Assembly: GCF_014656075.1 (NCBI RefSeq)
Contig: NZ_BNBS01000005.1
Span: 63,217-127,216, forward strand
Reading direction: 5' to 3'
DNA: 64,000 bases
From: Streptomyces hydrogenans
GTDB taxonomy: Bacteria; Actinomycetota; Actinomycetes; Streptomycetales; Streptomycetaceae
Each line of letters opens with the position of its first letter. The first letter of the stretch is position 1. The notes under the pieces were generated by a model. The model saw nothing but the letters and a program-made list of their open reading frames with translations, had not been told where the DNA came from and searched no databases. Made by a program: the position numbers and the translations under genes. This document shows, piece after piece, positions 3,198 to 51,968 of the stretch.

Positions 3198-3875
3198 TCA
3201 CGAGGGGTCCGTCGTGTCGACGGGGAGTTCGGCGAGGCGCCATTCCACCATGCCGTCGTGGAGGCGGACCGCCTGCCGTCCCCGCTCCGTCAGCATGCGT
3301 ACGGCGTCGTAGGCCAGGACGCAGTATTCGCCTCGGCAGTAGACGACGATCTCGGTCTGCTCGGGCAGCTCGTGGACGCGTGAGGCGAGTTCGTCGACGG
3401 GGATCGACACGGCTCCGGGGATGTGTCCGGCGAGGTACTCCTCCACGGGGCGTACGTCGAGGACCACGACGCTCCCGGCCGCCACCCGTGCGCGCAGCTC
3501 TTCGCGGGTCAGCTCGGCGCCGGCGTCAGGGCCGAGGTAGGCGTCGCGGGCGGCGGGGACGGCGGCCTGGTGGCGGTCGGCGACCTTGCGCAGCAGGGCG
3601 AGGAGCTGGGCCACGTCCTCGCCGGCGAGCCGGTAGTGGATGCGTACGCCCTCACGACGGGTGGCGACGAATCCGGCCTGCTTGAGGGTCTGCAGGTGCG
3701 CGGACGCGGTGGTCAGGTTCAGTCCGGCCGCCTTCGCGAGCGCGTCGACGGTGCGCTCGCCCTGGGCGAGCAGGTCGAGCAGTTCCAGACGCTTTCCGCT
3801 GGCCAGCGCCTTGCCGCTGACCGCGAAGGCGTCGTAGAGGGCGGCCTTGGTGCCGCCGGTGAGGGCATCCCGCAT
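3198..3875 (-). CDS. ArsR-type regulator fused to a rhodanese domain
   Basis: The 225-residue protein starts at ATG 3875, with GGAGG 5 nt upstream; the frame also opens at TTG 3887. Residues about 15-95 form an ArsR winged helix (LLDLLAQGERTVDALAKAAG, then LTTASAHLQTLKQAG). Residues about 125-215 are a rhodanese domain with VLDVRPVEEYLAGHIPGA and an active-site loop starting at Cys (YCRGEYC). Such fusions sense sulfane sulfur or persulfides and repress nearby genes; that role here is inferred. It diverges from the MFS gene at 4051 and precedes the TusA-like gene. Confidence 0.88.
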   Translation of the reverse strand: MRDALTGGTKAALYDAFAVSGKALASGKRLELLDLLAQGERTVDALAKAAGLNLTTASAHLQTLKQAGFVATRREGVRIHYRLAGEDVAQLLALLRKVADRHQAAVPAARDAYLGPDAGAELTREELRARVAAGSVVVLDVRPVEEYLAGHIPGAVSIPVDELASRVHELPEQTEIVVYCRGEYCVLAYDAVRMLTERGRQAVRLHDGMVEWRLAELPVDTTDPS

Positions 3876-4050
3876 TGCTTCCTCCAAACATCTATGGATT
3901 ACTGTAACTCATGGGTGGGTGATGAGTCCGCCTCGTGGGCTCCCGCTCCGGCCGTTCGCTTCGGCCGTCGCTCCGGAAGGACACATGACGAGCCTCGCCG
4001 ACGACCGCCCACGACCGGAAGCTCGTCCAGGGAACCGAAGGATCCACCGC

Positions 4051-5328
4051 GTGAACACCACCACCCCGACCGCGCCACCGGTCGACGCTCACGGACGTCC
4101 CGTACGCCTCGGACTGCGCGAGAACCGCCTTCAGTTCACGCTGCTCGTCATCGTCAACGTCTGTGTCGGCGGGCTCGTCGGCCTCGAACGCACCACCGTG
4201 CCCCTCATCGGGTCCGAGACCTTCCGACTGACCAGCGACCTGGCCGTCTTCTCCTTCATCATCGCCTTCGGCCTGACCAAGGCCCTCACCAACCTGGCCG
4301 CCGGGGCCCTGACGGCCCGCTTCCGCCGCAAGCAGCTCCTCGTCGCGGGCTGGCTGATCGGCGTCCCCGTACCGTTCGTCCTCGCGTACGCGCCCTCCTG
4401 GGGCTGGATCGTGGCGGCCAACGTGCTGCTCGGCCTGAACCAGGGCCTGACCTGGTCGATGACGGTCAACATGAAGATCGACCTCGTCGGGCCCGCCCGC
4501 CGCGGCCTGGCCACCGGCCTGAACGAGGCCGCCGGGTACACCGCCGTCGGCGTCACGGCACTGCTCACCGGCTACCTCGCGACCAGCTACGGCCTGCGGC
4601 CGGTACCGGAGCTGATCGGCGTCGTGTTCGTCGTCGCGGGCCTCGCCCTCGCCCTTGTCGTCCGCGACACCGCCGCGCACGTCGCCCTCGAACTCGCCCA
4701 GCACACCGTGCCGTTGCCCTCCGGAGAGGACACCGGCCTCAAGGCCACCTTCGCCCGCACCTCCTGGCACCACCGGTCCTTGCGCGGCGTCAGCCAGGCC
4801 GGACTGGTCAACAACCTCAACGACGGCCTCACCTGGGGCGTCTTCCCGCTCCTCTTCACCGACCACGGACTCGGCCTCGCCGCCGTCGGCCTCATCAAGG
4901 GCCTGTACCCGATCCTCTGGGGCATCGGCCAGATCCCCACCGGTCACCTCGCCGACCGCGTCGGCCGCAAACCCCTCATCGTCACGGGCATGCTCGTCCA
5001 GGCAGGAGGCTTCGTCCTCGCCCTCGCCCTGCTCGACAGCCCCATGCTCGCCGGTGTCCTCTCCGCCGTGGCCCTCGGCCTCGGCACCGCCATGGTCTAC
5101 CCGGCCCTCATCGCCTCCGTCTCCGACCACGCCCACCCCGCCTGGCGCGCCAACGCCCTGGGCACCTACCGCTTCTGGCGCGACATCGGCTACGCCGCCG
5201 GAGCGCTCCTCGCCGGCCTCCTCGCCGACCGGCTCGGACTGAACGCCACCGTCATCGCGGCCGCCGTCCTCACCGCCGCCTCCGGCCTCCTCGCCGCCCG
5301 CTGGATCACCGAGAACAAGGCGGACTGA
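4051..5328 (+). CDS. MFS transporter, 425 aa
   Basis: This is a major facilitator protein with about 12 membrane helices. The loop LTARFRRKQLL near residue 90 and DRVGRKPLI near residue 305 match the conserved loop-2/loop-8 motif of the family. GTG 4051 is chosen because GAAGGA lies 8 nt upstream; an in-frame ATG at 3985 would add 22 non-membrane residues. It is divergent from the ArsR-rhodanese gene, so export of a sulfur-related or other toxic compound under that repressor is plausible but not shown. A 9-bp hairpin lies about 70 bp downstream. Confidence 0.85.
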   Translation: MNTTTPTAPPVDAHGRPVRLGLRENRLQFTLLVIVNVCVGGLVGLERTTVPLIGSETFRLTSDLAVFSFIIAFGLTKALTNLAAGALTARFRRKQLLVAGWLIGVPVPFVLAYAPSWGWIVAANVLLGLNQGLTWSMTVNMKIDLVGPARRGLATGLNEAAGYTAVGVTALLTGYLATSYGLRPVPELIGVVFVVAGLALALVVRDTAAHVALELAQHTVPLPSGEDTGLKATFARTSWHHRSLRGVSQAGLVNNLNDGLTWGVFPLLFTDHGLGLAAVGLIKGLYPILWGIGQIPTGHLADRVGRKPLIVTGMLVQAGGFVLALALLDSPMLAGVLSAVALGLGTAMVYPALIASVSDHAHPAWRANALGTYRFWRDIGYAAGALLAGLLADRLGLNATVIAAAVLTAASGLLAARWITENKAD

Positions 5329-5544: not shown

Positions 5545-6015
5545 GTGTCCGATGCACGTGCCGTGCCGTCTTCCGCCGCCCGTCCCGGGGCCTCTCCGGA
5601 GGATGCCGAGGCGGTCTGGGCGGTGATCACCGGGATGTACGAGGCGTACGAGGCGGGGGACCGGGCGCGGATCGACGCGGCGCTCGATCCGGAGGCGACG
5701 ATCTGGGACTCGGCCGCCGAGCCGCTGCTGTTCGGGAAGCCTGACCTGGACCGGGTTCGCGACGAGCGGCCGGCGGCGGGGGAAGGGCCGGAGGAGAGCG
5801 GGCTGTACGCCTCCGAGCCGGTCGTCGACGTCTTCGGTGACCTCGCCGTGCTGCGGTACCTGCTGCGGGTCGAGTTCGCCCCGGGGCCGGACGGACGGGA
5901 GACGAGGCCGGAGCTCGTCCGCAACACGGTGGTCCTGCGGCAGGGCGGGGACGGCGCGTGGCGGATCGTGCACCTCCACGAGGACGTCCGGCAGACGGGC
6001 GGAGTGCCCGCCTGA
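5545..6015 (+). CDS. SnoaL-like / NTF2-fold protein, 156 aa
   Basis: The product has the NTF2-like alpha+beta cone pattern: VWAVITGMYEAYEAGDRARI, DPEATIWDS, then VFGDLAVLRYLLRVEF and WRIVHLHEDV. Members act as small isomerases or hydrolases, or only bind ligands; no activity can be assigned. The GTG at 5545 has GGAGG 5 nt upstream. An alternative GTG at 5518 lies 9 nt after a TAGAGT -10-like hexamer (5503-5508) and could be used on a leaderless transcript. The last codons and stop fall inside the first unit of a 28-bp tandem repeat. Confidence 0.75.
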   Translation: MSDARAVPSSAARPGASPEDAEAVWAVITGMYEAYEAGDRARIDAALDPEATIWDSAAEPLLFGKPDLDRVRDERPAAGEGPEESGLYASEPVVDVFGDLAVLRYLLRVEFAPGPDGRETRPELVRNTVVLRQGGDGAWRIVHLHEDVRQTGGVPA

Positions 6016-6223: not shown

Positions 6224-6333
6224 GGGTGTGCCGCATGCACAGCCGGTCTCCTCCGTCTGTGCGCCGCGCACGGGAGCCGCTCCCCCGCCTCTCGTTAGCG
6301 TCCGGGCATTCCCCGAGACAGCCGGGAGGCGGC

Positions 6334-8379
6334 ATGACATACCGGGTGGCCATGGACATCGGTGGGACGTTCACCGATGTCGTCGCCTATGACGAGACGA
6401 GCGGCACCTACCGCGCGGCGAAGGCGCCGACGACGCCGGGAGACCTGGCGGAGGGCGTCTTCGCCTCGCTGGAGCGGGCGGTGGAGGATCCCGCGGCGAT
6501 CTCCTTCTTCGTCCACGGCACGACCCAGGGCCTGAACGCCCTGCTGGAGCGCAAGGGCGCCCGTGTCCTGCTCCTCATGTCCGAGGGCATGCGGGACGTC
6601 TACCACATCGCCCGGGGCAACCGGGACCGGATGTTCGACCTGCACTACCGCAAGCCGGTGCCACTGGTGGAGCGGTACGCCACGGCCGAGGTCGGCGGGC
6701 GGCTCGACTGGCGCGGTGAGGAACTGCGTCCGCTCGACGAGGAGGCGGTGCGGGCCGCGGCCCGGCGGGCGAAGGACGAGGGTTTCACGGCGGTCGCCGT
6801 CTCCTTCCTCTTCAGCTACGTCGAACCGGCGCACGAGCGGCGGGCCGGGGAGATCCTCGCGGAGGAGCTGGGCGAGGACGTGATGGTCGTCCTCTCGCAC
6901 CGCGTGGCGGGCGAGTGGCGCGAGTACGAGCGGACGTCGTCGGCCGTCCTCGACGCGTACACCGGGCCCGTCGTGCGCCGGTACCTCGGCCGGATCGAGG
7001 AGCGGTTCGCCGAGCGCGGTCTCGGTGTGCCGGTACAGGTCATGCAGTCCTCGGGCGGGGTCGTCAACGCCGCCTTCGCCCGCCGCCACCCGCTCCAGAC
7101 GCTGCTGTCCGGGCCGGTCGGCGGCACCATGGGCGGTGTCGCGGCGGCCGCCCTGCTCGGCCGGCCGAACGCGATCTGCGTCGACATGGGCGGCACGTCG
7201 TTCGACGTCTCCCTCGTCCTCGACGGGCGGCCCGACATCTCCAACGAGGGTGCGGCGGACGGTTTTCCGGTCCTGATGCCGCTGGTCAACCTGCACACGA
7301 TCGGCGCGGGCGGCGGCTCGATCGCCTACGCGGAGGCGGGCGGCCTGCGGGTCGGCCCCGAGTCCGCGGGGGCCGCTCCCGGACCGGCCTGCTACGGGCG
7401 CGGCGGTACCCGGCCGACCGTGACGGACGCGAACGCGGTCCTCGGCCGGGTCGACCCGGAGTGGTTCGCCGGCGGTCACATGACCCTCGACACGGGCGCG
7501 GCGCAGCGGGCCGTGGAGGGGCTCGCCACCGAACTCGGGCTCTCCGCCGTCGCGCTGGCCGGCGGCATCTGCGGGGTCGCCAACGCCAAGATGGCGCAGG
7601 CGATCCGCACCCTCACCGTGGAACACGGCCTGGAGCCGCGCGAGTTCACCCTCCTCGCCTTCGGCGGAGCCGGCCCGATGCACGCGGTGGAGATCGCCCG
7701 TGAGCTCGGGGTGGCGGAGGTCGTCGTGCCGCGCTTCCCCGGCGCGTTCTCCGCGTGGGGCATGCTCGGCACCGAGGTCCGCCGCGACCTGACCCGACAG
7801 TTCTTCACCTCCGGTGACGCCCTCGACGGCGCCGCCATGGCGTCGGCGCTGGACGCGCTGGGCATCGAGGGGCGCGCCGTCCTCGGCGAGCAGGGCGTGC
7901 CCGTCGGGCTGCGGCGGGTCGAGCACGCCGTCGACATGCGGTACGAGGGCCAGGACTACACCCTCACCGTGCCGCTCGACGACTCCGCCGAGCCCGCCGC
8001 CGAGGGGTTCCTCGCCCGGGTGTCGGCGCGCTTCGCCGGTCTGCACGAGCGGCGGTACGGCCACGCCACCCCGGGGGCCCCGGTCGAGTTCGTGACGCTG
8101 CGCACCACGGCGCTCGGCGGATCACCGGACCTCGCCCCGGCCGGGTACGCCCCGGAGGCCGGGGAGAACCCGTGGGCCGGTCGCGTCAAGCCGGTCTTCT
8201 TCGACGGCGCAAGCCACGAGACGCCCGTCCTGCGCCGCGAACACCTGGCCGCGGGCGAGGAGTTCAGCGGTCCGGCGATCGTCGTCGAGGCCACCTCCAC
8301 CACCGTCGTACCGCCGGACGCCCACGTCACCGTCGACGCGAACGGCTTCCTCGTCATCAAGCTCGGAGGCACCGCGTGA
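6334..8379 (+). CDS. hyuA: Hydantoinase/oxoprolinase subunit A (HyuA family)
   Basis: This 681-residue protein has the Hydant_A_N start (DIGGTFTDVVAYD, residues 8-20), a HGTTQGLNALLERKG segment, and a second actin-like ATPase motif DMGGTSFDVSL near residue 285. It ends in the usual C-terminal domain, and the length is normal. Family members use ATP to open hydantoin, N-methylhydantoin or 5-oxoproline rings together with subunit B. ATG 6334 has GGGAGG 4 nt upstream. It overlaps hyuB by GTGA, indicating translational coupling. The substrate is unknown; the nearby DUF917 operon suggests a hydantoin-like compound. Confidence 0.92.
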   Translation: MTYRVAMDIGGTFTDVVAYDETSGTYRAAKAPTTPGDLAEGVFASLERAVEDPAAISFFVHGTTQGLNALLERKGARVLLLMSEGMRDVYHIARGNRDRMFDLHYRKPVPLVERYATAEVGGRLDWRGEELRPLDEEAVRAAARRAKDEGFTAVAVSFLFSYVEPAHERRAGEILAEELGEDVMVVLSHRVAGEWREYERTSSAVLDAYTGPVVRRYLGRIEERFAERGLGVPVQVMQSSGGVVNAAFARRHPLQTLLSGPVGGTMGGVAAAALLGRPNAICVDMGGTSFDVSLVLDGRPDISNEGAADGFPVLMPLVNLHTIGAGGGSIAYAEAGGLRVGPESAGAAPGPACYGRGGTRPTVTDANAVLGRVDPEWFAGGHMTLDTGAAQRAVEGLATELGLSAVALAGGICGVANAKMAQAIRTLTVEHGLEPREFTLLAFGGAGPMHAVEIARELGVAEVVVPRFPGAFSAWGMLGTEVRRDLTRQFFTSGDALDGAAMASALDALGIEGRAVLGEQGVPVGLRRVEHAVDMRYEGQDYTLTVPLDDSAEPAAEGFLARVSARFAGLHERRYGHATPGAPVEFVTLRTTALGGSPDLAPAGYAPEAGENPWAGRVKPVFFDGASHETPVLRREHLAAGEEFSGPAIVVEATSTTVVPPDAHVTVDANGFLVIKLGGTA

Positions 8380-10085
8380 GCACCCCCACCCCGGCGGACC
8401 GGACCGCTGTCGACCCGGTCACCACGGAGATCATCCGCTGCGCCCTGCTCCAGGCCGCGGAGGACATGAACACCACCCTGATCCGCTCGGCGTACACCCC
8501 GACCATCTACGAGGCCAAGGACTGCGCGGTCGCCCTCCTCGACCGCGACCACCACGTCCTCGGCCAGTCCTCGGGGCTGCCGATCTTCCTCGGCAACCTG
8601 GAGGAGTGCACCCGGGCCACGGAGCGGATGTACGGCTCCGACGTGTGGCGCGAGGGCGACGTGTGGGTGCTGAACGACTCGTACATCGGCGGGACCCACC
8701 TCAACGACGTGACCGTCTACGCCCCCATCCACGTCCGGGGCGAGCTCGTCGGCTTCGCCGCCTCGCGGGCCCACTGGATCGACATGGGGTCGAAGGACCC
8801 GGGGGGTTCGATGGACTCCACCTCGATCCACCAGGAGGGTCTGCGGATGGGTCCGCTGAAGATCTACGAGGGTGGTGAACCGTGCGTGCTCGTACACGAT
8901 CTGATCGCCCGCCAGGTGCGTTTCCCGCAGCCCACGCTCGGTGACATGCGCGCCCAGGTGGCCTGCGCCCTGACCGGCGCCCGGCGGCTGGCGGAGATCG
9001 TGGAGCGCTGGGGCACGGACACGCTGCTGGCGGCGCGCGACGCCATCTTCGCGCAGACCGAGCGCCTGGAGCGCGAGCAGATCGCGGCCGTCCCCGACGG
9101 GGTGTACGAGGCGACCGGTCGGCTCGACAACGACGGCATCGACCTGGACGTGCCACTCTCCGTCACCGTCCGCGTGACGATCGACGGCGACCGGATGACG
9201 ATGGACCTCACCGAGTGCGCCGACCAGGCGACCGGGCCCGTCAACTGCGGCGCCGCGCAGACCGTCGCCGCGTGCCGGGTCGGCTACAAGCTCCTCGTCA
9301 GTGGCGAAGTGCCGCTCAACGGCGGGTCGTTCAAGCCGCTCGACGTCGTCACCCGTCCTGGTTCCATGCTGGCCGCGATCGAACCCGCCGCCTGCCAGTA
9401 CTACTACTCCCACCTCGGTCTCGTCATCGACCTCGTCGTCCGCGCGCTCGCCCCGGCCGTGCCGGAGCGGGCCGCGGCCGCCTCCTACGGCGACTCGATG
9501 ATCGTGCAGTTCACCGGCCTCGACCCGCGGACGGGCAAGCTGTTCGTCTCCCAGGAGGCGACCGTCGGCGGCTGGGGCGCCTGGGAGACCGGCGACGGCG
9601 AGTCCTGCCTGATCAACAACGTCAACGGCTCGCTCCGCGACATGCCCGTGGAGGTCCTGGAGACCCTCTTCCCCGTGCGGGTCGAGGAGTACGCCGTACG
9701 GGCCGACTCCGCGGGCACCGGCCGCACCCGGGGCGGCAACGGCGTGGTGCGCCAGTACCGCTTCACCGCCGACCAGGACCTCTCCCTGTGGTGGGAGCGG
9801 TCGGACACGCCGGCGTGGGGCCTGTTCGACGGCGGGGCCGGCGCCCCGCCGCGCGTCACCCTCAACCCCGGCCGCGCCGAAGCCCGTTCCCTGCTCAAGG
9901 TGAACGCGCTGCCCGTCCGCGCGGGCGACGTCCTGCGCTGCGAGAGCGGCGGGGGCGGCGGCTTCGGCCCCGCCGCCGAGCGGGACCCCGCGGCGGTCGC
10001 CGAGGACGTCCGGCAGGGCCTGCTGAGCCCCGGCCGCGCCGCGGCCGACTACCCGGCCGGCTCCCCTTCCGGGGGCTCCGCCTGA
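8376..10085 (+). CDS. hyuB: Hydantoinase/oxoprolinase subunit B (HyuB family)
   Basis: This 569-residue protein covers the full Hydantoinase_B family. It opens with DPVTTEIIRCALLQAAEDMN, followed by WVLNDSYIGGTHLNDV and a Gly-rich end (GGGGGFGP) typical of the family. It forms the catalytic complex with HyuA for ATP-dependent imide or lactam ring opening. The GTG start overlaps the hyuA stop. Its last 37 bp overlap the 3' end of the convergent PucR gene, so the two transcripts would be antisense at their ends. Confidence 0.92.
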   Translation: MSTPTPADRTAVDPVTTEIIRCALLQAAEDMNTTLIRSAYTPTIYEAKDCAVALLDRDHHVLGQSSGLPIFLGNLEECTRATERMYGSDVWREGDVWVLNDSYIGGTHLNDVTVYAPIHVRGELVGFAASRAHWIDMGSKDPGGSMDSTSIHQEGLRMGPLKIYEGGEPCVLVHDLIARQVRFPQPTLGDMRAQVACALTGARRLAEIVERWGTDTLLAARDAIFAQTERLEREQIAAVPDGVYEATGRLDNDGIDLDVPLSVTVRVTIDGDRMTMDLTECADQATGPVNCGAAQTVAACRVGYKLLVSGEVPLNGGSFKPLDVVTRPGSMLAAIEPAACQYYYSHLGLVIDLVVRALAPAVPERAAAASYGDSMIVQFTGLDPRTGKLFVSQEATVGGWGAWETGDGESCLINNVNGSLRDMPVEVLETLFPVRVEEYAVRADSAGTGRTRGGNGVVRQYRFTADQDLSLWWERSDTPAWGLFDGGAGAPPRVTLNPGRAEARSLLKVNALPVRAGDVLRCESGGGGGFGPAAERDPAAVAEDVRQGLLSPGRAAADYPAGSPSGGSA

Positions 10086-11803
10086 TCCTCCGGCACCTCG
10101 GGCTCCGTCGCGTCCAGCTGCACCCGGCACGCCAGGTGCAGCGGCAGGCGGAGCCCCGGGTCGTCCGGATCGCAGCCGAGGGCGCGGAGCCGTTCGAGGC
10201 GGGCGCTCACGGTGTTGCGGTGCACCCCGAGCCGGGCCGCCGCGACCGACGGCGCCCCGCCGACGTCGAGCAGCACCGCCAGGGTCCGCAGCAGCGACCC
10301 GTCGCGGTCCACCGCGAGGAGGGGCGCGAGCAGGGCCCGCGCGGGGGCCCGCAGCGCCTCGCGGGGCAGCGCGGTGAGCAGGTGGGCCGGGCCGACCCGG
10401 TCCGCGCGCACGACGGTGCCCGGCCGGGCCACCCCGACCGCGGCCACCGCGTCGGCGAGGGCCTGCCCGAGACCTCCGAGGGAGGCGACCGGTCCAGCGA
10501 CCGCACCCGCGGAGGGCGCCGGCAGGCCGGGCTCGGAGCAGGCGGCGCGCAACCGGCGTTCGGCGCGGGCCAGGGGGTCGCGCCCTGCGCCGTCCGGGTC
10601 CGCCACGGACTCCCAGGCCACCCACACGCCCTCGTACGCGATCAGGGGTCCGGCCCCCGTGCCGGCCCGGGCCCAGCGGGCCGCGAGCAGCGGCCCGGTC
10701 TCCGGCCCGGGCGGCCCCGAGTCCGGGGCGGCCGGGCCGAACGGCCGGACGGCGTGGACGACGAAGGGCCCGCGCAGCGGCCAGCCGAGGGCGACCGCCG
10801 CGGCGAGCAGCGGATCGTGCGGGTCGGCGGCGCCGGTCTCCGGCGGGTTCGGCTCGGCCCGGCCCAGGGCCCGCCGCTCGTCCCCCGTCGGGTCCTCCAG
10901 CACGTCCCGTGGTGCGTCTGCCCCGGGGCTCCGCCGCTCGTTCCCGACCGGGGCACGCCGCTCCCCCGGGTCCCGTCGCGCGCCGTCGGGCTCGGCGGTG
11001 GTGTCGTCGCCGTAGCGGGCGAGGAGTTCCGCCAGCAGGCCCGAGGCGCGGCGCCCGTCCCGTTCGGCGGCGAGGCGTTCGGTCGCCGCCCAGGCGGTCA
11101 GGGGCGCGACGGCGAGCCCGAGGACCTCGCGCACGGTGGCCTCCCAGCCGGCCGGGCGGTCCCGGAAGCCCGCCGTCAGGACGGCGAGCGGTTCTCCGCC
11201 GGGCCCGGCGACCTCCACCGTCACCCGCGCGGTCCGGTCCGTGGGGTCGAGCGCCCCGGCGCGACCCGCGAGCAGCTCCCCCGCCGGGCCGGTGAGCGCC
11301 ACGGAGGTGGCGGGGAGGACCGCGTGGAGCGCGGAGAGGAGCCGTGCGGGGCGGATGCCGGCCCCGGCGATCTGCCGGGCCGCGCCCGCGATCAGGGCGG
11401 TGCGCCCGGCCTCGGGGCGGGCGACGGCGGAGGCGATCCGCACGGCAGCGTCCAGCGGGTCGCCCGGCACGACCAGGAACGGGATGCCGAGCCGCCCCGC
11501 GAGCTCGGCGACCGAGCCGGGCAGGCCGGCCTCGCGTGAGACGACCACGCAGGCGGCCGCCTGCTCCCACGCCTTGCGCAGCGCCATCTCGACCGTCCAG
11601 GCGGCGGCCGCCGCCCCGGCGGTGAGGACGACGGCGCTGCGCGGGCGCACCTCGTCCAGCGCGGCGAGCCGGTCCACGATGCGTACCGCGGTGACGGGCA
11701 CGGCGGCGCCGACCGGCCCGTGGACCTCGATGTCCGCGAGGGGGCCGTCCTGGAGCAGTTCGGTGAGGGTCAGGGGACGGAAGCCCGGGTCGGGTCCGCT
11801 CAT
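10049..11803 (-). CDS. PucR-type helix-turn-helix regulator
   Basis: The 584-residue regulator has an N-terminal PucR domain (LTLTELLQDGPLADIEVHG; VVLTAGAAAAAWTVEMAL) and a low-complexity Arg/Glu/Pro linker at about 265-335. The C-terminal PucR HTH at about 520-550 contains VAAARLGVHRNTVSARLERL. PucR proteins usually activate purine, allantoin or related catabolic genes, which fits hydantoin chemistry. ATG 11803 overlaps the upstream DUF917 stop as ATGA, and GGAGG lies 6 nt before it. It is the last gene of the leftward operon and probably the local regulator. Confidence 0.88.
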   Translation of the reverse strand: MSGPDPGFRPLTLTELLQDGPLADIEVHGPVGAAVPVTAVRIVDRLAALDEVRPRSAVVLTAGAAAAAWTVEMALRKAWEQAAACVVVSREAGLPGSVAELAGRLGIPFLVVPGDPLDAAVRIASAVARPEAGRTALIAGAARQIAGAGIRPARLLSALHAVLPATSVALTGPAGELLAGRAGALDPTDRTARVTVEVAGPGGEPLAVLTAGFRDRPAGWEATVREVLGLAVAPLTAWAATERLAAERDGRRASGLLAELLARYGDDTTAEPDGARRDPGERRAPVGNERRSPGADAPRDVLEDPTGDERRALGRAEPNPPETGAADPHDPLLAAAVALGWPLRGPFVVHAVRPFGPAAPDSGPPGPETGPLLAARWARAGTGAGPLIAYEGVWVAWESVADPDGAGRDPLARAERRLRAACSEPGLPAPSAGAVAGPVASLGGLGQALADAVAAVGVARPGTVVRADRVGPAHLLTALPREALRAPARALLAPLLAVDRDGSLLRTLAVLLDVGGAPSVAAARLGVHRNTVSARLERLRALGCDPDDPGLRLPLHLACRVQLDATEPEVPEDQAEPPEGEPAG

Positions 11804-12963
11804 CGGGTTCCTCCGCTTCCGGTGCGGGCGAGGGCCCGTCCTTCCGGGGTGTACCAGGCCGCCGGGGCCTCGATGACGACCACCTCGACGGCCGTTCCCG
11901 GCACGGCGCGCTCCACGTCCAGGACTCTGCGGTCGGTTCTGGAGAGCATGAGGATCTGGTCGGGCAGGGAGGCGGCCGGCGCGCCGTCCGCGAGGACGAG
12001 CAGGATCTCGTTGTGGGCCTCCAGCCGGAACCTCCGCCGCAGTCCCTCGTCCTCCTCGACGAGCACGCTGGTCGGGCGGGACGGCAGGGGCACGCGGTCG
12101 GGGACGCCGCCGAGCGTGCCGTGGGGCACCGCTGCGGCCGTACCGCCCGCCGGTCCGCCGGGCAGGCCGGTGAGGGGTCCGGCGGCGCCGTTCTCGTGGT
12201 TCTCGTACGCGCCCGCCGACTGTTCGACCGCCACGATCCGCCCGCGGCACAGGCTGCGGGGGCGCCAGGGCGCGAAGCGCGCCCGGCCGGTGGCCGCGCC
12301 GGCGGCGACGGCCCTGCTGACGGTTCCGGGGACGAGGCACGAGGCGAGCCGGGCACCGTCCATCGGGTACGCGGCGGCCACCGCCCAACCGCCGGAGGCG
12401 AGCACGAGGGGGCGGACGAGGTCCTCCACCCGGCCCCGCGCCGACTCCACGGCCACGACGTCGCCGCTCGGGGTGGCGAGGGCGAGCGGGGCGGGGGCGA
12501 CGCCGGCGAGCGTGAAGAGGGTCTGTTCCAGGAGGGGCAGCACGCGTCCGCACCCGTCCCCGTCGACGAGCGGGAGGCCGCAGCGGGCGGCGGTCGCGAG
12601 GGCGATGAGGGCGTTCTCCGCGGCGGCGTTGAGCGGCACGACGGCCTCGGCGGCCCGGCCGGCGACCCGCTCGACGGCGCGCACGGCCCGGACCGGCTCC
12701 TCTCCCGTGGGCAGCTGCTCGGCGAGGGCGGCCGAGGCCCCGGCCAGGGTGACCGCCACGCAGAGCCCGGTGCCGGGCAGCCGGTCCACGGGGAGCAGCG
12801 GGACGGGTCCGTGCGCGGCGAGTTCCGCGGCGGCCCAGTCGAGTGCCACGTGGTAGGCGGACTCCTCGGTCCCCGCGGCGAGGACGCGTGCGCCGACGGC
12901 GAGGTCTTCCAGGTCGTCGACGGTCAGCGCGCGGACCGGGCGGCCGGCGGCCGGCGCGGTCAT
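11800..12963 (-). CDS. DUF917 family protein (S-methyl thiohydantoin desulfurase-like)
   Basis: This 387-residue protein has the DUF917 hallmarks: LTVDDLEDLAVGARVLAAGT at the start, PLLPVDRLPGTGLCVAVTLAG, and LVDGDGCGR near residue 140. The C-terminal domain includes RTDRRVLDVERAVPGTAVEV and a CRGRIVAVEQS segment. The family includes enzymes that remove the sulfur group of S-methyl thiohydantoins to yield hydantoins. That reaction is known for some members and only inferred here. It is coupled by ATGA overlaps to the HyuA-like gene upstream and PucR downstream. Confidence 0.85.
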   Translation of the reverse strand: MTAPAAGRPVRALTVDDLEDLAVGARVLAAGTEESAYHVALDWAAAELAAHGPVPLLPVDRLPGTGLCVAVTLAGASAALAEQLPTGEEPVRAVRAVERVAGRAAEAVVPLNAAAENALIALATAARCGLPLVDGDGCGRVLPLLEQTLFTLAGVAPAPLALATPSGDVVAVESARGRVEDLVRPLVLASGGWAVAAAYPMDGARLASCLVPGTVSRAVAAGAATGRARFAPWRPRSLCRGRIVAVEQSAGAYENHENGAAGPLTGLPGGPAGGTAAAVPHGTLGGVPDRVPLPSRPTSVLVEEDEGLRRRFRLEAHNEILLVLADGAPAASLPDQILMLSRTDRRVLDVERAVPGTAVEVVVIEAPAAWYTPEGRALARTGSGGTR

Positions 12964-14453
12964 GGCGTCGCGCCCGGGGCAGGGGCGCCCGCCGCCCGTA
13001 CCGTCACGCGGTGCACCCCCGCGGGCAGATACGCGACGGGGGCGTGGGCCAGGCTCTCGATCCGTACGGAACCGGGGGCCGCCCCGGCCGCGACGCACCG
13101 CGAGAGGGCGTGGTCGCGGACGGCGGCGAGCGCCTGGTCGAGCTCGGCGCGGCCCGCGGCGGAGATCACCTGCTCCACTTCGATCCGGCAGTCCGCCCGC
13201 GCGGCGTAACGGGCGGCGTCGGTGAGCCGGGGGTACCGGCCGTGGAGGGCGGGGTCTGCGTCGGCCCCGGCGCCGGTCCGGACGTCCGTGCGGGCGTCCG
13301 TCCGGGCGTCCGTCCGCGCGTCGGCTCCCGCGCCGGTCCGGCCAGTGGTTCGGGTGTCGGCCCGGGTCACGTTTCTGCCGGTCCCCCGCTCCCGGTCTCC
13401 GGCCGGGGGCTCCCCCGGTCCGACCGGAGCGCCGAACGCCTCGGCCCGGCCGCCCGTGTACAGCACGCCGGCACCGGGGACCCGTTCCAGCAGCCGGGCG
13501 ACCGTCGCCGGAACCTCGGCCGCCTCCGCGCCGTCGGTCTCCACGACCTCCGGGGCGCCGAGCGCGAGGCGTACCCCGAAGGGGCCCGGAAGCAGCCGCG
13601 TGGAGCGTTCCGGCTCGCCGTCGCGCACGACGAGACACCGGACAGAGCGGGCGCCCGCGTCGACGACGACCGCCTGGTCGAGTCCGGTACGGGCGAGGGC
13701 GCCCCGGGCGGCGCAGGCCGAGGCGGGGGCGGTGGCGATCACGGGGTGCCGGGCGAAGTACTCGGCCGACACGAGCCCTCCGTCGTCCCGGGCGAAGCAG
13801 AGGGGTGCCGCGATCCGCGCGGACCGCAGCGCGGCACGGCAGTCGGCGACGAGCTCCTCGGCCCAGCCGCCGAGGGCGGCGTTGACGGCGGTGGCGTTCT
13901 CGCGCTCGCGCAGGCCGGCGGCGCCGGTCTCGTACGAGAGGCTGAGCGACGCCCCGGGCACCGTGGCCGCGAGGACCGCCGCCGCGTCCAGTTCGGGTCC
14001 CGGCCGGGCGGGGGCACCGGCCGCGCACACGGCGAAGACCCGGACGCCCGCGTCCCGGGCCCGGCCGGCGAAGGCCGCGGCGCCGTCCCGGTCGAGCGGG
14101 CCGAGCGACCCGCCGGTGACGGCGCTGCCGCCGGCGACGACGCCCGTCAGCCCTCCGAGCGCGGTGTGCGCCGCCTCGGGCCGGTCGGCGAGCGGCGCGA
14201 GCGCGGCATGGCTCCCGGGGGCGATGCGCAGGACGGCGACGGGCCGGGGGCGGGGCGGCCGGCGGGCCAGGTCGGTGACGACGGCGACCGCCCCGACCGG
14301 TCCGGGGAGCGGGCCGAGCGCGGCGAGCGCCCGCCGGACGCAGAGTCCGGTGCGGGGAGCGCTGTCGACGACGGCCTCGGCGAGCACCCGGCCCGCCGCG
14401 TCGACGAGCACGGCGGTGCTGGTGGCGCGCCCCACGTCGATTCCGATCCGCAT
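12960..14453 (-). CDS. HyuA-like hydantoinase/oxoprolinase N-terminal family protein
   Basis: This 497-residue protein starts MRIGIDVGRATSTAVLVDAAG and has a second ATPase-like segment VVVDAGARSVRCLVV near 255. It is a shorter relative of HyuA; in fungi similar domains are fused to DUF917, matching the adjacency here. Residues about 360-400 contain a repetitive insert (DARTDARTDARTDVRTGAG) encoded by near-identical 12-bp units. GGAAGGA is 7 nt before the ATG. It overlaps the DUF917 gene by ATGA. It may act with DUF917 rather than with HyuB. Confidence 0.82.
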   Translation of the reverse strand: MRIGIDVGRATSTAVLVDAAGRVLAEAVVDSAPRTGLCVRRALAALGPLPGPVGAVAVVTDLARRPPRPRPVAVLRIAPGSHAALAPLADRPEAAHTALGGLTGVVAGGSAVTGGSLGPLDRDGAAAFAGRARDAGVRVFAVCAAGAPARPGPELDAAAVLAATVPGASLSLSYETGAAGLRERENATAVNAALGGWAEELVADCRAALRSARIAAPLCFARDDGGLVSAEYFARHPVIATAPASACAARGALARTGLDQAVVVDAGARSVRCLVVRDGEPERSTRLLPGPFGVRLALGAPEVVETDGAEAAEVPATVARLLERVPGAGVLYTGGRAEAFGAPVGPGEPPAGDRERGTGRNVTRADTRTTGRTGAGADARTDARTDARTDVRTGAGADADPALHGRYPRLTDAARYAARADCRIEVEQVISAAGRAELDQALAAVRDHALSRCVAAGAAPGSVRIESLAHAPVAYLPAGVHRVTVRAAGAPAPGATP

Positions 14454-14566
14454 GTCCCCATCCTTCCACCGGCCGCGATCACGGGTGTCGGCTCGCGACC
14501 CCGGCCCCCGGGAGGGTCGGCCGCCCGGCCCCGGAAAGGTCCGCCACCCGCCTCTCGGAGGTTCGG

Positions 14567-15928
14567 CTATTCCAGGTCCTTGCCCTCGGTCTCCGGGAGC
14601 GGGGCCGCGCACAGGAGGGCGACGGCGAGGAAGGCCATGATGAAGAGGACCGTCGAGGAGTGTCCGGTGGCCCGGGCCAGCAGGTAGCCGACCACGGACG
14701 GGGCGAGGGAGGTGGCGCCGAGCTGGGCGGCCGTCGCCCACGAGTACCCGGTGGCGCGCAGGGCGGTCGGGTAGAACTCGCCGTTCCAGGTGTTCCAGAC
14801 GCCCCAGGCGCCCAGGCAGAAGAACGAGAGGGCGAAGTTCGCCACGTACATGCTGGTCAGCGTGTCCGCGTAGGCGAAGGCCACTCCGGAGACGGCGGCG
14901 AGTCCGACGTACGGCAGGAAGACCTTCTTGCGGCCGTAGCGGCCGGTCAGCAGCGACGCGGAGACGTAGCCGGGGATCATGAAGACCGCGCTGAGGGCGA
15001 CGAACCCCAGGCTGGCGGACATGCTGAGGCCCTTGTCCTGCAGGAGCGTCGGCAGCCAGGTCTGGAGGCCCCAGTAGCCCCAGTTGAAGGCGAAGTTCAC
15101 GACGAGCATGAGGACCGTGACGCGCAGCAGGCGGCCGCGGAACAGGTCGAGCGGCTGCCCCGCGCGCTCCTTGCCCTCCGCCGAGGAGGCGAAGACCGTG
15201 CCTTCCGGCACGTCCGCCCCCAGCTTCCGGAGGACGGCGGCGGCCTCGGCGTGACGGCCGCGCTCCGCCAGCCAGTACGGGGACTCGGGCACCCACGCGC
15301 GGATCGCGAAGACCCAGGCGCCGGCCAGACCGCTGGCGACGGCGACGACGTGCCAGCCGAGACCGCCGAGGAGCTGGGTGACGCCGACGGCGAGGAGGAC
15401 GCCGATCGGCCAGCCGACCGAGAGGTAGACCGCGGCCCGGCCCCGCAGCCGCGACGGCAGCAGTTCCAGGAAGTAGGGGAAGGTGACGGTGTAGATGCCG
15501 GCGAGGGCGAGGCCGGACAGGAACCGTGTGACCATCAGGACGGTGAAGTTCGGCGAGAACGCGCTGACCAGGGCGATGACGCCGTAGGCCGCCAGCGACC
15601 ACAGGCAGACCGCGCGCCGGCCGATCCGGTCCGAGACCGGACCCCAGACGAGGCTGCCCGGGATCATGCCGAGCGCGACGGCGGACAGGGCCCAGCCGAT
15701 GGCCCCCTCGTCGATGCCGAAGGAGCTCCCGAGGTCACCGGAGACGTAGACGAGGGCGAGCTGCTCCCACGACTCGATCACGAAGGCCATGAAGAGGGCC
15801 GTCGCGGCCAGCAGGTGGGCCCTCCGGAAGGGCATGTCCTCGAACCAGTACCCCACGGACCGGACCGGACCGGCCTCTCCGACCATGCCTTCCTCGCCTC
15901 TTGGTGCTGTTTCTCTCATGGCGCTCAT
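14567..15928 (-). CDS. MFS transporter of the hydantoin-type locus
   Basis: The 453-residue MFS permease has 12 predicted helices, WGPVSDRIGRRAVCLWSLAAYG in loop 2 and GRYGRKKVFLPY in loop 8. A central hydrophilic stretch carries PESPYWLAERGRHAEAAAVL, the sugar/aromatic-acid importer signature. ATG 15928 is chosen because GGAAGGA lies 6 nt upstream. It is first in the leftward operon, 113 bp before the HyuA-like gene, and is probably the uptake system for the compound that the operon degrades. Confidence 0.87.
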   Translation of the reverse strand: MSAMRETAPRGEEGMVGEAGPVRSVGYWFEDMPFRRAHLLAATALFMAFVIESWEQLALVYVSGDLGSSFGIDEGAIGWALSAVALGMIPGSLVWGPVSDRIGRRAVCLWSLAAYGVIALVSAFSPNFTVLMVTRFLSGLALAGIYTVTFPYFLELLPSRLRGRAAVYLSVGWPIGVLLAVGVTQLLGGLGWHVVAVASGLAGAWVFAIRAWVPESPYWLAERGRHAEAAAVLRKLGADVPEGTVFASSAEGKERAGQPLDLFRGRLLRVTVLMLVVNFAFNWGYWGLQTWLPTLLQDKGLSMSASLGFVALSAVFMIPGYVSASLLTGRYGRKKVFLPYVGLAAVSGVAFAYADTLTSMYVANFALSFFCLGAWGVWNTWNGEFYPTALRATGYSWATAAQLGATSLAPSVVGYLLARATGHSSTVLFIMAFLAVALLCAAPLPETEGKDLE

Positions 15929-16149
15929 CGACTGTCCTTCCGGGCCTCGGCACAGGCTACGCATCCCTCGACGTGAGGAGTGGCGGCACCCTAGGCGGAC
16001 CCGCCCGGCACCGGATGTGCGCGGCGCACGGGGAACGGCCCCGGCGCCGTGCTCCCCGCACAGCCCGAGTGCCGCGACGGTCCTCCATGGAGGGTGCGGC
16101 GCCCGAAAACCGGTGGTGGGTCCGGCCGGCCCGTGGGGAGGATCGCGGC

Positions 16150-16707
16150 ATGTCCACCTTCCTGAAGACCGACCGGCTCGTCCTGCGCGCGTTCACGACG
16201 GCCGACACCGACCACCTGTTCGCGCTGGACAACGATCCCGAGGTCATGCGTTTCCTCAACGGCGGTCGCCCGACCAGCCGCGAGGCGGTCGAGACGCGGG
16301 TCCTGCCGCGGCTCCTGCACGACCACCCGTGCTGGGGGACCCGCGGCTACTGGGCCGCCCAGGAGAAGGACACCGGCACCTTCCTGGGCTGGTTCGAGTT
16401 CCGGCCGCTGGACGAGGGCAGCCCCGCCGTGGTCGAACTCGGCTACCGGTTGAACCGGGCGGCGTGGGGGCACGGCTACGCCACCGAAGGCTCCCGGGCC
16501 CTGATCCACAAGGGGTTCACCGACCTGGAGGTCGAGCGGGTCACGGCGAACACGATGGCCGTGAACACCCGCTCCCGCCGCGTCATGGAGAAGTCGGGCC
16601 TGGTCCTCGTCCGGCACTTCACCGGGGACTGGCCGGAGGCGATCGGGGGCTCCGAGCACGGTGAAGTCGAGTACGCGCTGACCCGGACCGAGTGGGACCG
16701 GCGGTAG
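16150..16707 (+). CDS. RimJ/RimL-type GNAT acetyltransferase
   Basis: This 185-residue protein begins LKTDRLVLRAFTTADTDHLFAL, typical of the Acetyltransf_3 group. It carries the acetyl-CoA loop region LNRAAWGHGYATEGSRALI and the VERVTANTMAVNTRSRRVMEKSG segment. It would acetylate an amine or protein N-terminus. GGGGAGGA precedes the ATG. It is divergent from the MFS gene with about 220 bp between, and monocistronic before the tRNA. Confidence 0.9.
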   Translation: MSTFLKTDRLVLRAFTTADTDHLFALDNDPEVMRFLNGGRPTSREAVETRVLPRLLHDHPCWGTRGYWAAQEKDTGTFLGWFEFRPLDEGSPAVVELGYRLNRAAWGHGYATEGSRALIHKGFTDLEVERVTANTMAVNTRSRRVMEKSGLVLVRHFTGDWPEAIGGSEHGEVEYALTRTEWDRR

Positions 16708-16844
16708 ACGTCGACGGCCCGGTCCACGGCTCGGGCGGATCGCCTGACGCGAACCGCCTACCGCGTGTCCCCCGGGCCAGGGGGTCTGCGGGGACGGCTT
16801 TGGTCTGAGAGGCCTCGCGGATGGCGTAGGGTGGTGTTCACCGA

Positions 16845-16918
16845 CGCGGGGTGGAGCAGCTCGGTAGCTCGCTGGGCTCATAACCCAGAGGTCGCAGGTT
16901 CAAATCCTGTCCCCGCTA
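16845..16918 (+). tRNA. tRNA-fMet (CAT), initiator
   Basis: A full cloverleaf can be drawn: acceptor CGCGGGG with CCCCGCT, an unpaired first position (C1/T72), and GCTCATAA as the anticodon loop with CAT at 16879-16881. The anticodon stem carries three G:C pairs (CTGGG/CCCAG). The mismatch at 1-72 and the GGG/CCC stem mark the initiator type. CCA is not encoded. Confidence 0.95.
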
Positions 16919-16924
16919 CTGATG

Positions 16925-16961
16925 ACGTGAGGCCCGGATCCACAGGATCCGGGCCTCACGT
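16925..16961 (+). terminator. Strong hairpin after tRNA-fMet
   Basis: A perfect 17-bp stem (ACGTGAGGCCCGGATCC and its complement) with a 3-nt loop starts 6 nt after the tRNA. This is the clearest terminator in the window. Confidence 0.92.
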
Positions 16962-19131: not shown

Positions 19132-21351
19132 TTGCAGCACCGCACCGCCGGCACCGCCCGTCTCGCCACCGCCGTCGCGACCGTCCTCGCCGTGACGTCC
19201 CTCGGGGCCGGAGTCCTCGCCACCGCCCCGGCCGCCTTCGCGGCCACGCCGGCCGCCGTGTCCGCCGGCTCCGCGGCGGAGGCGGACTCCCCCGCCGTCC
19301 TTCCGGAGGGCGCCGACCTCGGCGGCATCTCGCCCTCGGGCTTCCTCACCTACTCCTTCGAGCGGGACGGCAGCCGGAAGCTGCTCTGGACGCCGTTCGA
19401 CGGCGGTGCCCCGACCCCGCTCGGCGAGCCGGAGGGCTGGGCCCTCGGCGGCGGTGACGTGGTCGTCCTCGGCGACGCCGGGTGGACCGCCCGGATGACC
19501 GCGCTCAGCCTGCGGAACATGGCCGACCCGTCCGCCCCGGCCGTGGACATCGACCTCGGCCCGCTCGACGGCACCTACGTCACGGTGCTCGGCCCCGACA
19601 GCGTGCTCGCGCAGCTCAGGAACGGCGACGGGACGACGGAACTGCACGTGGTCACCAAGGCCGGTGCCGAGACGACCCACCGCAAGGTCGAGGGGCTGCC
19701 GGCGGACGCCGCCGACTTCTTCGGCTCGGACGTCCAGGACGGCACCGTGCTCGTCGGCTACGCGACGGGCCCCGCCGACGCGCGGACCGGCGGCCGGGCC
19801 GTCGTCGACGTGGCGACCGGAACGGTCTCGGAGACGTACGCGTCCGCCGAGGGCGGCTACGACTTCAGCGGGCTGCAGTTCTCCGACTCGCACGTGGCCT
19901 GGACCGACTACGACAGCGCGTCCGGCCTGTACATCACCTCCGTCGACCGCACGACGAAGGAACGGAAGAAGACCGTCCTGGGTGCCCGCGACAGCGAAGC
20001 CTACGCGGCCCTGATGGGCTCGTGGCTGGTGCACGGCGACCCGACGACCGCCGTGAAGGCCCTCGACCTGACCACCGGCGAGACCCGCGAGCTCGCCCCC
20101 AGGGCGACCGCCGCCGCCTCCGTCGGCGACGGCACCGTGGTGTTCCAGGGCGAGACGGCCGCCGACGGCAAGGGCCTGTTCCGGATCGCCGAGGCGGCCG
20201 ACGGCGGCTTCTCGCTCACCAAGGTGGCGAGCCCGGCATCGGCGGTGCCGCTGACCTTCGAGCAGACCCAGGTGCCCGAGACGGTGAACCTGGACGAGTC
20301 CGGCGGCTCCGTCACCCTCAACTGGACGCTGTCGCGCCCCGACGCCTCCGTGGTCGTCACGCTCACGCACACGGCCACCGGCAAGGAGGTCACCGAGGCC
20401 GCGTACTCCCCCGCCGAGGACGGGCACTTCGCCTTCGCCTGGGACGGCACCATCGACGGCGTGGACGCGCCGAACGGCGCCTACACCGTGGAGGCCCGCG
20501 CGGAGCTCCACAACGGCGCCGTCGAGCCCGTGACCCGGACCTCGCCGGTCACCGTCACCCGCACGGCCAACCCGCACGACTTCACGGACAACGGCTCCAC
20601 CGACGTCCTCGCCCGCGACGCCTCCGGCGTGCTCTGGCGCGACGACCTGCGCGACCGCCCGGTCGACGGCCGGGTCGAGAGCGCCCAGCGCGCCCAGATC
20701 GGCGCCGGGTGGAACACGTACACGCACATCGAGGCCGCCGGGAACATCGCCGGCGCCGCGCACGGCGACCTCGTGGCCGTCGACGGCTCCGGCACGATGT
20801 GGCACTACCTCGGCAAGGGCGACGGCACCTTCACCGCCCGCCGCCAGGTCGGCGGCGGCTGGCAGGTCTACGACAAGCTCGCCGGCGGCTCCGACCTGAA
20901 CGCCGACGGACGCGCCGACCTCCTCGCCACCGACACGTCCGGCGGCCTGTGGTTCTACGCGGGCACCGGCGACGCCGCCCAGCCCTACAAGCCGCGCGTG
21001 AAGGTCGGCAGCGGCTGGCAGATCTACAACCAGATCACCGCCGTCGGGAACATCGCCGGAGCGTCCGGCGGCGACCTCGTCGCCCGCGACAAGGACGGCG
21101 TCCTGTGGCTGTACCTCGGCAAGGAGGACGGAACCTTCGCCGCCCGCCGCGAGATCGGCGGCGGCTGGCAGGCCTTCTCCCAGCTCGTGGGCGCCGGAGA
21201 CGTCGACAGCGACGGGCGCCCGGACCTCGTCGCCTACGGGGCCGGCGGCACCTACGTCTACCGGTCCACCGGGTCCCTCACCTCCCCCCTCACCCGCACG
21301 GACACCGCCCTCTACGCGGGTGAGGGAACGAAGTTCACCAGCGTCTCCTGA
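19132..21351 (+). CDS. Secreted FG-GAP/VCBS repeat protein, paralog 2
   Basis: The 739-residue protein starts at TTG 19132 (LQHRTAGTARLATAVATVL), giving a signal peptide ending near AAFAA. It has an N-terminal beta-propeller-like half, then a FlgD-type Ig-like segment around residues 385-480 (LNWTLSRPDASVVVTLTHTA, then WDGTIDGVDAPNGAYTVEAR). The C-terminal FG-GAP units have IGGGWQ motifs and DLNADGRADLL-type loops. The organisation is close to paralog 3. A 12-bp hairpin follows the gene. The role is unknown; extracellular and calcium-stabilised is likely. Confidence 0.86.
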   Translation: MQHRTAGTARLATAVATVLAVTSLGAGVLATAPAAFAATPAAVSAGSAAEADSPAVLPEGADLGGISPSGFLTYSFERDGSRKLLWTPFDGGAPTPLGEPEGWALGGGDVVVLGDAGWTARMTALSLRNMADPSAPAVDIDLGPLDGTYVTVLGPDSVLAQLRNGDGTTELHVVTKAGAETTHRKVEGLPADAADFFGSDVQDGTVLVGYATGPADARTGGRAVVDVATGTVSETYASAEGGYDFSGLQFSDSHVAWTDYDSASGLYITSVDRTTKERKKTVLGARDSEAYAALMGSWLVHGDPTTAVKALDLTTGETRELAPRATAAASVGDGTVVFQGETAADGKGLFRIAEAADGGFSLTKVASPASAVPLTFEQTQVPETVNLDESGGSVTLNWTLSRPDASVVVTLTHTATGKEVTEAAYSPAEDGHFAFAWDGTIDGVDAPNGAYTVEARAELHNGAVEPVTRTSPVTVTRTANPHDFTDNGSTDVLARDASGVLWRDDLRDRPVDGRVESAQRAQIGAGWNTYTHIEAAGNIAGAAHGDLVAVDGSGTMWHYLGKGDGTFTARRQVGGGWQVYDKLAGGSDLNADGRADLLATDTSGGLWFYAGTGDAAQPYKPRVKVGSGWQIYNQITAVGNIAGASGGDLVARDKDGVLWLYLGKEDGTFAARREIGGGWQAFSQLVGAGDVDSDGRPDLVAYGAGGTYVYRSTGSLTSPLTRTDTALYAGEGTKFTSVS

Positions 21352-21400
21352 CGCACCGGGGCTTCGGCCCGCAGCCCCGTTCGCTCTCCTCGCGAGTCCT

Positions 21401-21429
21401 CCGGGTGCGGCCTTCACGGCCGCACCCGG
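21401..21429 (+). terminator. Hairpin after FG-GAP paralog 2
   Basis: A perfect 12-bp stem CCGGGTGCGGCC / GGCCGCACCCGG has a 5-nt loop. It lies 50 bp after the stop and 28 bp before the start of paralog 3, so it may limit read-through between the paralogs. Confidence 0.75.
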
Positions 21430-21457
21430 GCGACCCCGTCCGACCGGAGGACCCCAC

Positions 21458-51964: not shown

Positions 51965-51968
51965 TCCC

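Follow-up and report, generated by a model that had tools for sequence, protein, structure and literature searches.

Organization of the locus

The window analysed here is a 64,000-nucleotide stretch of Streptomyces hydrogenans DNA (contig NZ_BNBS01000005.1, positions 63,217 to 127,216), part of a 9.0-Mb genome spread over 332 contigs. It carries a locus in which the genes of a HyuAB-type enzyme pair face an operon for a predicted importer of the major facilitator superfamily (MFS), a short HyuA-like protein, a DUF917 protein and a PucR-type regulator. A sequence-only reading of the same DNA had named these six genes in this arrangement, and all six were confirmed by open frames, codon-position G+C and Pfam. 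A small SnoaL/DUF4440 gene upstream of hyuA is also part of the unit, because all seven genes recur in nine of nine related loci. Two copies of a palindrome, TGTGC-N5-GCACA, precede each of hyuA and the MFS operon:

5623..6015, + strand: SnoaL/DUF4440-like small protein, 130 aa (Pfam DUF4440 32 bits, SnoaL_3 30 bits)
6227..6241, + strand: palindrome TGTGC-CGCAT-GCACA, perfect, distal site before hyuA
6258..6272, + strand: palindrome TGTGC-GCCGC-GCACG, 1 mismatch, proximal site before hyuA
6334..8379, + strand: hyuA, ATP-dependent cyclic-amidase alpha subunit by family (Hydantoinase_A 320.5 bits; ATP motifs intact)
8376..10085, + strand: hyuB, metal-binding beta subunit (Hydantoinase_B 545 bits; D-H-D-H metal tetrad intact)
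10049..11803, - strand: PucR-type regulator (HTH_30 58.1 bits, cut-off 27)
11800..12963, - strand: DUF917/S-Me-THD-fold protein, proposed sensor partner (S-Me-THD_N/C 121.7 + 86.0 bits, gathering score 27)
12960..14453, - strand: short HyuA-like ASKHA-fold protein, proposed sensor partner (33.5 bits to Hydantoinase_A)
14567..15928, - strand: MFS importer, TIGR00895-like (MFS_1 140.1 bits)
16016..16030, - strand: palindrome before the MFS operon, 1 mismatch
16048..16062, - strand: second palindrome before the MFS operon, 1 mismatch

S-Me-THD_N and S-Me-THD_C are the Pfam domains formerly named DUF917, and the MFS start was placed at the codon aligned among relatives (ATG; GTG in two). The earlier description of the operon as coupled by ATGA overlaps holds for short HyuA/DUF917 (12960-12963) and DUF917/pucR (11800-11803). 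It does not extend to the importer, whose stop lies 113 bases from the short HyuA start without overlap coupling, and hyuA and hyuB share GTGA (8376-8379). The 3' ends of the convergent hyuB and pucR share 37 bases (10049-10085).

HyuAB is intact

The caprolactamase study (PMC8453981) gives the enzyme's ATP motifs as P1 (DxGGTxTD), P2 (DxGGT) and an adenosine motif (GxxPGP), and the metal ligands of its CapB subunit as Asp41, His99, Asp102 and His124. Mutants of that enzyme in the first Asp of P1 or of P2, or in a metal ligand, had little or no activity left. The window HyuA has all three ATP motifs, as DIGGTFTD, DMGGT and GAAPGP. Among the HyuA proteins of loci of the same type (defined below), 19 of 20 have every scored ATP motif, the remaining one having GGS in P1. 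The Asp-His-Asp-His tetrad is present in all 21 HyuB proteins examined, the window HyuB having been aligned to CapB. The idea of an importer and an ATP-dependent HyuAB beside a PucR-type regulator is supported. By these features HyuAB is an ordinary member of the ATP-dependent hydantoinase/oxoprolinase/lactamase kind, and family membership would make its substrate a cyclic amide. The pair scores below the caprolactamase equivalog cut-offs (NF050156/NF050157), at 481.1 and 258.6 of 1000 bits, and its nearest solved relative by sequence is N-methylhydantoinase.

The short HyuA and DUF917 have lost the motifs of their families

We defined the type to which the window belongs by its DUF917 protein, which lacks E..G.N and has PL in place of the PE of most family members; 22 loci (window included) qualify, and these two features make up the definition and are left out of the findings. 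Likeness to the window led to most of the 22, while a HyuB-first search and a Pfam survey of 394 class genomes served as routes independent of the window DUF917 sequence. Short HyuA and DUF917 of the 22 loci were aligned with those of other cassettes, leaving out L041 (same genome as L009) and ORF pieces below 230 aa, and key strings were rechecked without alignment; since the alignment hides GGGG in L108 and L174, the unaligned count is used for this string.

The short HyuA has lost the P1 GGT, the P2 GGT and the GGGS..TATD (adenosine) block in 22 of 22 loci, although P1 is not aligned in L121 and L202, whose matched short HyuA proteins lack the N-terminal part. By comparison, 45 of the 55 other HyuA rows keep all ATP motifs, six have lost all and four are partly changed; the 55 include two HyuA proteins of true HyuAB pairs (L116_11165, L117_3003). 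In the window protein, GRA and GAR replace GGT, the adenosine block is missing and D.GG[TS] occurs nowhere; a GPLPGP string lies near the N terminus, not at the place of the adenosine motif. DUF917 has lost GGGG in 20 of the 22 loci, against retention in all 76 other DUF917 proteins, 69 of which also keep E..G.N. The window DUF917 has none of GGGG, E..G.N and FPE, which most of the family keeps.

The sequence-only reading had taken DUF917 for an (S-methyl) thiohydantoin desulfurase. The window protein reaches 34.4 of 450 bits for the S-methyl thiohydantoin desulfurase equivalog and 20.2 of 440 bits for the thiohydantoin desulfurase one, and with its three family motifs lost and a short HyuA partner without ATP-binding motifs, this assignment is not supported. 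Six motif-bearing DUF917 proteins of other loci score merely 75-111 bits for S-methyl thiohydantoin desulfurase, so judging from these scores the desulfurase name need not fit the wider family either.

Despite the motif loss, AlphaFold models indicate that both folds are kept. The DUF917 model resembles 2o3i (Z 24.9, 301 residues, 4.3 A; matches with Z below 8 were disregarded), and the short HyuA model is closest to the acetophenone carboxylase alpha subunit (Z 24.6), with CapA (6yra) at Z 22.4. It also matches the inducer-bound ROK repressor 5f7r, at Z 12.1 and rank 37 amid many kinases. The mean predicted local distance difference test (pLDDT) scores are 75 for DUF917 and 78 for the short HyuA, and DUF917 residues 138-156 fall under 50.

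Two further observations concern short HyuA genes. In L044 (9358-10698) and L164 (8724-10052), a second short HyuA, lacking ATP motifs, adjoins a DUF917 gene and a divergent pucR; these cassettes hold a motif-bearing short HyuA and DUF917 as well, with a perfect palindrome between pucR and DUF917. In L121 (Nonomuraea), the short HyuA (20990-21978) is apparently broken between two reading frames.

A core conserved across relatives

Scanning GTDB species genomes with the window DUF917 protein gave nine related loci, eight in Streptomyces and one in Arthrobacter. All seven genes are present in each. The SnoaL gene lies near hyuA in all nine, inverted in L012, and is present in L039 too. The space between pucR and hyuB is occupied by additional genes in L012 and by racemase-like pieces in L013. 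Best-piece identity to the window is 73-90% for HyuB, 66-86% for HyuA and 59-86% for the importer; it is 42-72% for DUF917, 39-63% for PucR and 35-59% for the short HyuA. The three window flank genes tested (3198-3887, 4051-5328 and 16150-16707) have no match in any of the nine loci, and the outer flanks of the nine differ from one another, save one side common to L008 and L011.

Remoter members occur in G031, G089, G574, G606, G505, G593, G516, G929 and G959, in Nonomuraea gerenzanensis, and on plasmids p232 of Arthrobacter sp. Rue61a and pYJN5-3 of Paenarthrobacter sp. YJN-5. The transporter varies by locus: it is an MFS protein or, in L111 and L112, a ribose-type ATP-binding cassette (ABC) transporter, and in L039, L040, L108 and L110 no MFS match adjoins the trio of short HyuA, DUF917 and pucR. 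Asp/Glu/hydantoin-racemase genes or pieces occur in L013, L122 and L123. The constant core is the trio plus HyuAB. Starting from HyuB, a search of 297 family genomes found six with a HyuB of at least 63% identity (window included), the next match being at 39%, and the degenerate trio is present in all six. HyuB was found in the fetched stretch at 20 of the 22 type loci versus 6 of 76 other DUF917 genes. The two halves are linked but not convergent in G593; in G516 they lie near the ends of two separate contigs, where their linkage is presumed.

The position of pucR is constant: in 22 of 22 type loci it follows DUF917 in the same direction within 350 bases, as against 10 of the other 76 DUF917 genes. 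(An overlap of a few bases between its genes gave L123 the label 'same_up' in the position listing.) The six other motif-less short HyuA genes each have a pucR gene no more than about 1.2 kb away. The N-terminal PucR domain PF07905 was not detected in the window PucR at E 0.01 and was found in that of L043.

Several neighbouring features were noted in passing. Where no MFS gene precedes the short HyuA, a gene for a protein of about 165-176 aa without a Pfam match does so (L040 7519-8016, L108 4392-4889, L110 4566-5096). L202 (G959:C57), with L204 and L205, has the degenerate trio behind a ribose-type ABC transporter. On the Micrococcaceae plasmids pYJN5-3 (L122) and p232 (L123), the locus is accompanied by genes for a racemase, a GAF protein and an amidohydrolase, the last scoring 229 of 500 bits to Xaa-Pro dipeptidase in L122. 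One report (PMC9869045) describes degradation of iprodione by strain YJN-5 and opening of its hydantoin ring by ddaH; iprodione was considered as a substrate lead because pYJN5-3 bears the locus, and dropped, as no link between locus and iprodione degradation was found. In the window, a tRNA-Met gene (16845-16919), about 0.9 kb past the MFS end, could mark the insertion point of the island. The flank gene at 3198-3887 encodes a fusion of ArsR-type DNA-binding and rhodanese domains. By eye, and from first residues only, a gene run at 48497-53051 looks to encode flavin-linked enzymes together with a nitrate/taurine-type ABC transporter.

Selection and tree

The ratios of nonsynonymous to synonymous substitution rates (dN/dS), taken over six pairs, show purifying selection on both degenerate proteins: 0.22-0.33 for the short HyuA and 0.24-0.29 for DUF917. 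PucR lies at 0.15-0.36, HyuA at 0.14-0.21, HyuB at 0.10-0.14 and the importer at 0.09-0.16. The pair evolves nearer the pace of PucR than that of the enzyme and importer, which lends weak support to a role on the regulatory side. In a quick HyuA tree, from which the two HyuA proteins of true HyuAB pairs were omitted, the 22 short HyuA proteins fall into one group (Shimodaira–Hasegawa-like approximate likelihood ratio test, SH-aLRT, 99); two further groups contain the six other rows without motifs. The tree came with long-branch warnings and does not demonstrate independent, repeated motif loss.

Paired palindromes before both operons

The palindrome TGTGC-N5-GCACA was found by aligning upstream regions. 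Its two sites are spaced by 31 bases before hyuA and by 32 bases before the MFS operon. The 64-kb window holds one perfect site versus 0.05 expected and five with at most one mismatch versus 1.41 expected. In the 9.0-Mb genome, the tandem form occurs at exactly two places, the two promoters, and a reversed control occurs at none. Allowing one mismatch at most, 15 of 21 loci have a site in the 400 bases before hyuA, 16 of 20 have one in the 1000 bases before the trio operon, and 20 of 23 have at least one such site. L109, a contig end where HyuAB alone is present, was counted solely in this survey, and L122 and L123 were given no trio start there. Among 30 arm permutations scored over the 23 loci, TGTGC makes the commonest perfect palindrome, with 24 copies versus 13 for the next, GTCGT; from their match to the upstream alignment, the GTCGT copies are probably conserved coding sequence where hyuA begins.

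At 55 other DUF917 loci, the number of perfect TGTGC copies is not striking (9, versus 11 for GTCGT and 8 for TGTCG). Their placement is constant: all nine lie 66-103 bases upstream of DUF917, eight of them between DUF917 and a divergent pucR. This constant position is the best evidence that the palindrome belongs to this PucR group. The 55 include six loci with a motif-less short HyuA (L044, L164, L177, L189, L196, L199), and three of the nine copies are at such loci (L044, L164, L189). Together, the shared palindromes support a tie between the two operons, and PucR would be the protein that binds them.

We also scanned the 3-kb stretches at all matches of the tandem pattern in Streptomyces genomes, and a gene of the locus was found only in the window and in G1077. 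In the latter (L225, about 16340-16960), an MFS gene fragment lies behind a tandem palindrome near transposase-like genes, probably a decayed relic of the island. One of the other stretches, L214, has an unrelated ArsR-like gene, and the matching region of G1189 contains nothing related to the locus.

Discussion

We put at about even the chance that the locus is one PucR-controlled catabolic island, in which a former enzyme pair acts as sensor or co-regulator for the import and opening of a cyclic amide. The MFS protein would import the amide (a hydantoin, lactam or imide), HyuA would phosphorylate it at the expense of ATP, and HyuB would open the ring at its metal site. The short HyuA and DUF917, descended from an enzyme pair, would persist as non-catalytic partners of the adjacent PucR. 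Their most likely role would be to bind a ligand and signal to PucR when to act, and PucR would switch hyuA and the MFS-short HyuA-DUF917-pucR operon through the paired TGTGC-N5-GCACA sites. With its codons overlapping into pucR and its ATP motifs gone, the pair is best taken as a ligand-binding partner of PucR. A more specific proposal is tentative, and we rate it slightly below even: an ASKHA-fold ex-ATPase and a DUF917 ex-enzyme would jointly sense the cyclic amide and direct PucR, a separate protein, at the paired palindromes. A whole enzyme cassette would then have become the sensor for another, still active enzyme with the same chemistry.

Several results weigh against this interpretation. 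In G959 the trio accompanies a ribose-type ABC transporter, but the genome has no HyuAB of this type, its best HyuB match being 32%. The type DUF917 proteins of L108 and L174 retain GGGG, and we found no role in the literature for GGGG, E..G.N or FPE, which are not established as desulfurase-defining or catalytic. SnoaL, a non-regulator, evolves as fast as the pair (dN/dS 0.23-0.40, six pairs), and evolutionary pace is therefore weak evidence for a sensor role. Similarly, pucR is common at other DUF917 cassettes (within 400 bases in 37 of 55 loci, mostly divergent), and its linkage alone is therefore no proof of such a role. As for the palindromes, no site precedes hyuA in 6 of 21 loci or the trio in 4 of 20, and L123, L202 and L109 have none where tested. 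The single perfect palindrome occurs at four places in its own genome versus nine for the reversed control, and at the other three places no match to locus proteins or hidden Markov models was found. The tandem pattern matches 13 of 392 Streptomyces genomes versus 10 for its reversed control, and was rejected as a specific finder of the locus.

The main rival, which we consider fairly unlikely, holds that the short HyuA and DUF917 form a changed, ATP-independent enzyme whose step on the same compound precedes or follows that of HyuAB, possibly by way of Cys138 and His317 of DUF917. Both residues are invariant in the 10 closest members, the models keep the folds, the pair is under purifying selection, and the racemase-like genes or pieces nearby in L013, L122 and L123 make extra steps plausible. 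But Cys138 is absent from the other 12 of the 22, His317 is Gln in eight of the nine other members aligned, the segment 138-156 is the poorly modelled one, and the pace of the pair is nearer that of PucR than that of HyuAB.

Considerably less probable is a structural or allosteric role as an additional HyuAB subunit. According to PMC5214803, acetophenone carboxylase contains two HyuA-like subunits, and its alpha subunit is the best structural match of the short HyuA model. However, the pair is encoded with PucR in the other operon, its dN/dS is two to three times that of HyuB, and the trio persists in G959, where such a HyuAB is missing. That the pair is merely decaying and without function is very improbable: it would account for the motif loss and for the short or broken short HyuA of L121 and L202, but DUF917 is open in all 22 loci, the short HyuA is open and full-length or nearly so in most, across several families, and its dN/dS lies well below 1. 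Least credible of all is the route of the sequence-only reading, in which an ergothioneine-type thiohydantoin is imported, desulfurated by DUF917 and opened by HyuAB: the fold family and the intact HyuAB fit it, yet the desulfurase scores and lost motifs speak against it, and no positive evidence was found in a genome with one urocanase-family gene and one DUF917 gene, where ergothioneine genes themselves were not searched for and flanking genes not all annotated, so that we reject it.

Should the sensor interpretation hold, a hydantoinase or DUF917 (thiohydantoin desulfurase-like) annotation beside pucR would in some cases mark a non-enzyme, and pathway predictions drawn from such genes would be wrong. 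The locus would also be a case of enzyme-to-sensor evolution whose motif-bearing relatives are still extant for comparison. Finally, the palindrome would offer a direct handle on the regulon, and hence on what HyuAB of this type acts on, in Streptomyces and related soil bacteria.

Comparison with known systems

How does this arrangement relate to systems already described? Like CapAB caprolactamase (6yra) and N-methylhydantoinase (7hk5/9h03), which match the window HyuA at 379-433 bits, it has a HyuAB enzyme, found as a pair or a fusion, with ATP motifs and metal tetrad; unlike them, the window HyuAB adjoins a PucR-linked ex-enzyme pair and scores below the caprolactamase cut-offs. With S-methyl thiohydantoin desulfurase (NF058532) and thiohydantoin desulfurase (NF058529), the window DUF917 shares the S-Me-THD_N and _C domains and a 2o3i-like fold, but it falls far below both cut-offs and its GGGG, E..G.N and FPE motifs are gone. 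Other HyuA-DUF917 cassettes consist of the same gene families, many have a pucR, and 9 of 55 have a perfect copy of the palindrome; they differ in that most of their short HyuA rows (45 of 55) keep all ATP motifs and that the three tested have an NCS1-type permease.

In the titles and abstract openings returned by searches of open-access literature, we found no description of a HyuA/DUF917 pair acting with PucR. Within those searches, an ex-enzyme pair fixed beside PucR, together with a palindrome joining two operons, is new.

A further parallel lies elsewhere. The ROK-family repressors (e.g. 5f7r) show that the ASKHA sugar-kinase fold, which is common to them and the short HyuA, can act as an inducer sensor. 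There, sensor and DNA-binding domain are in one chain, whereas the DNA-binding protein here would be the separate PucR.

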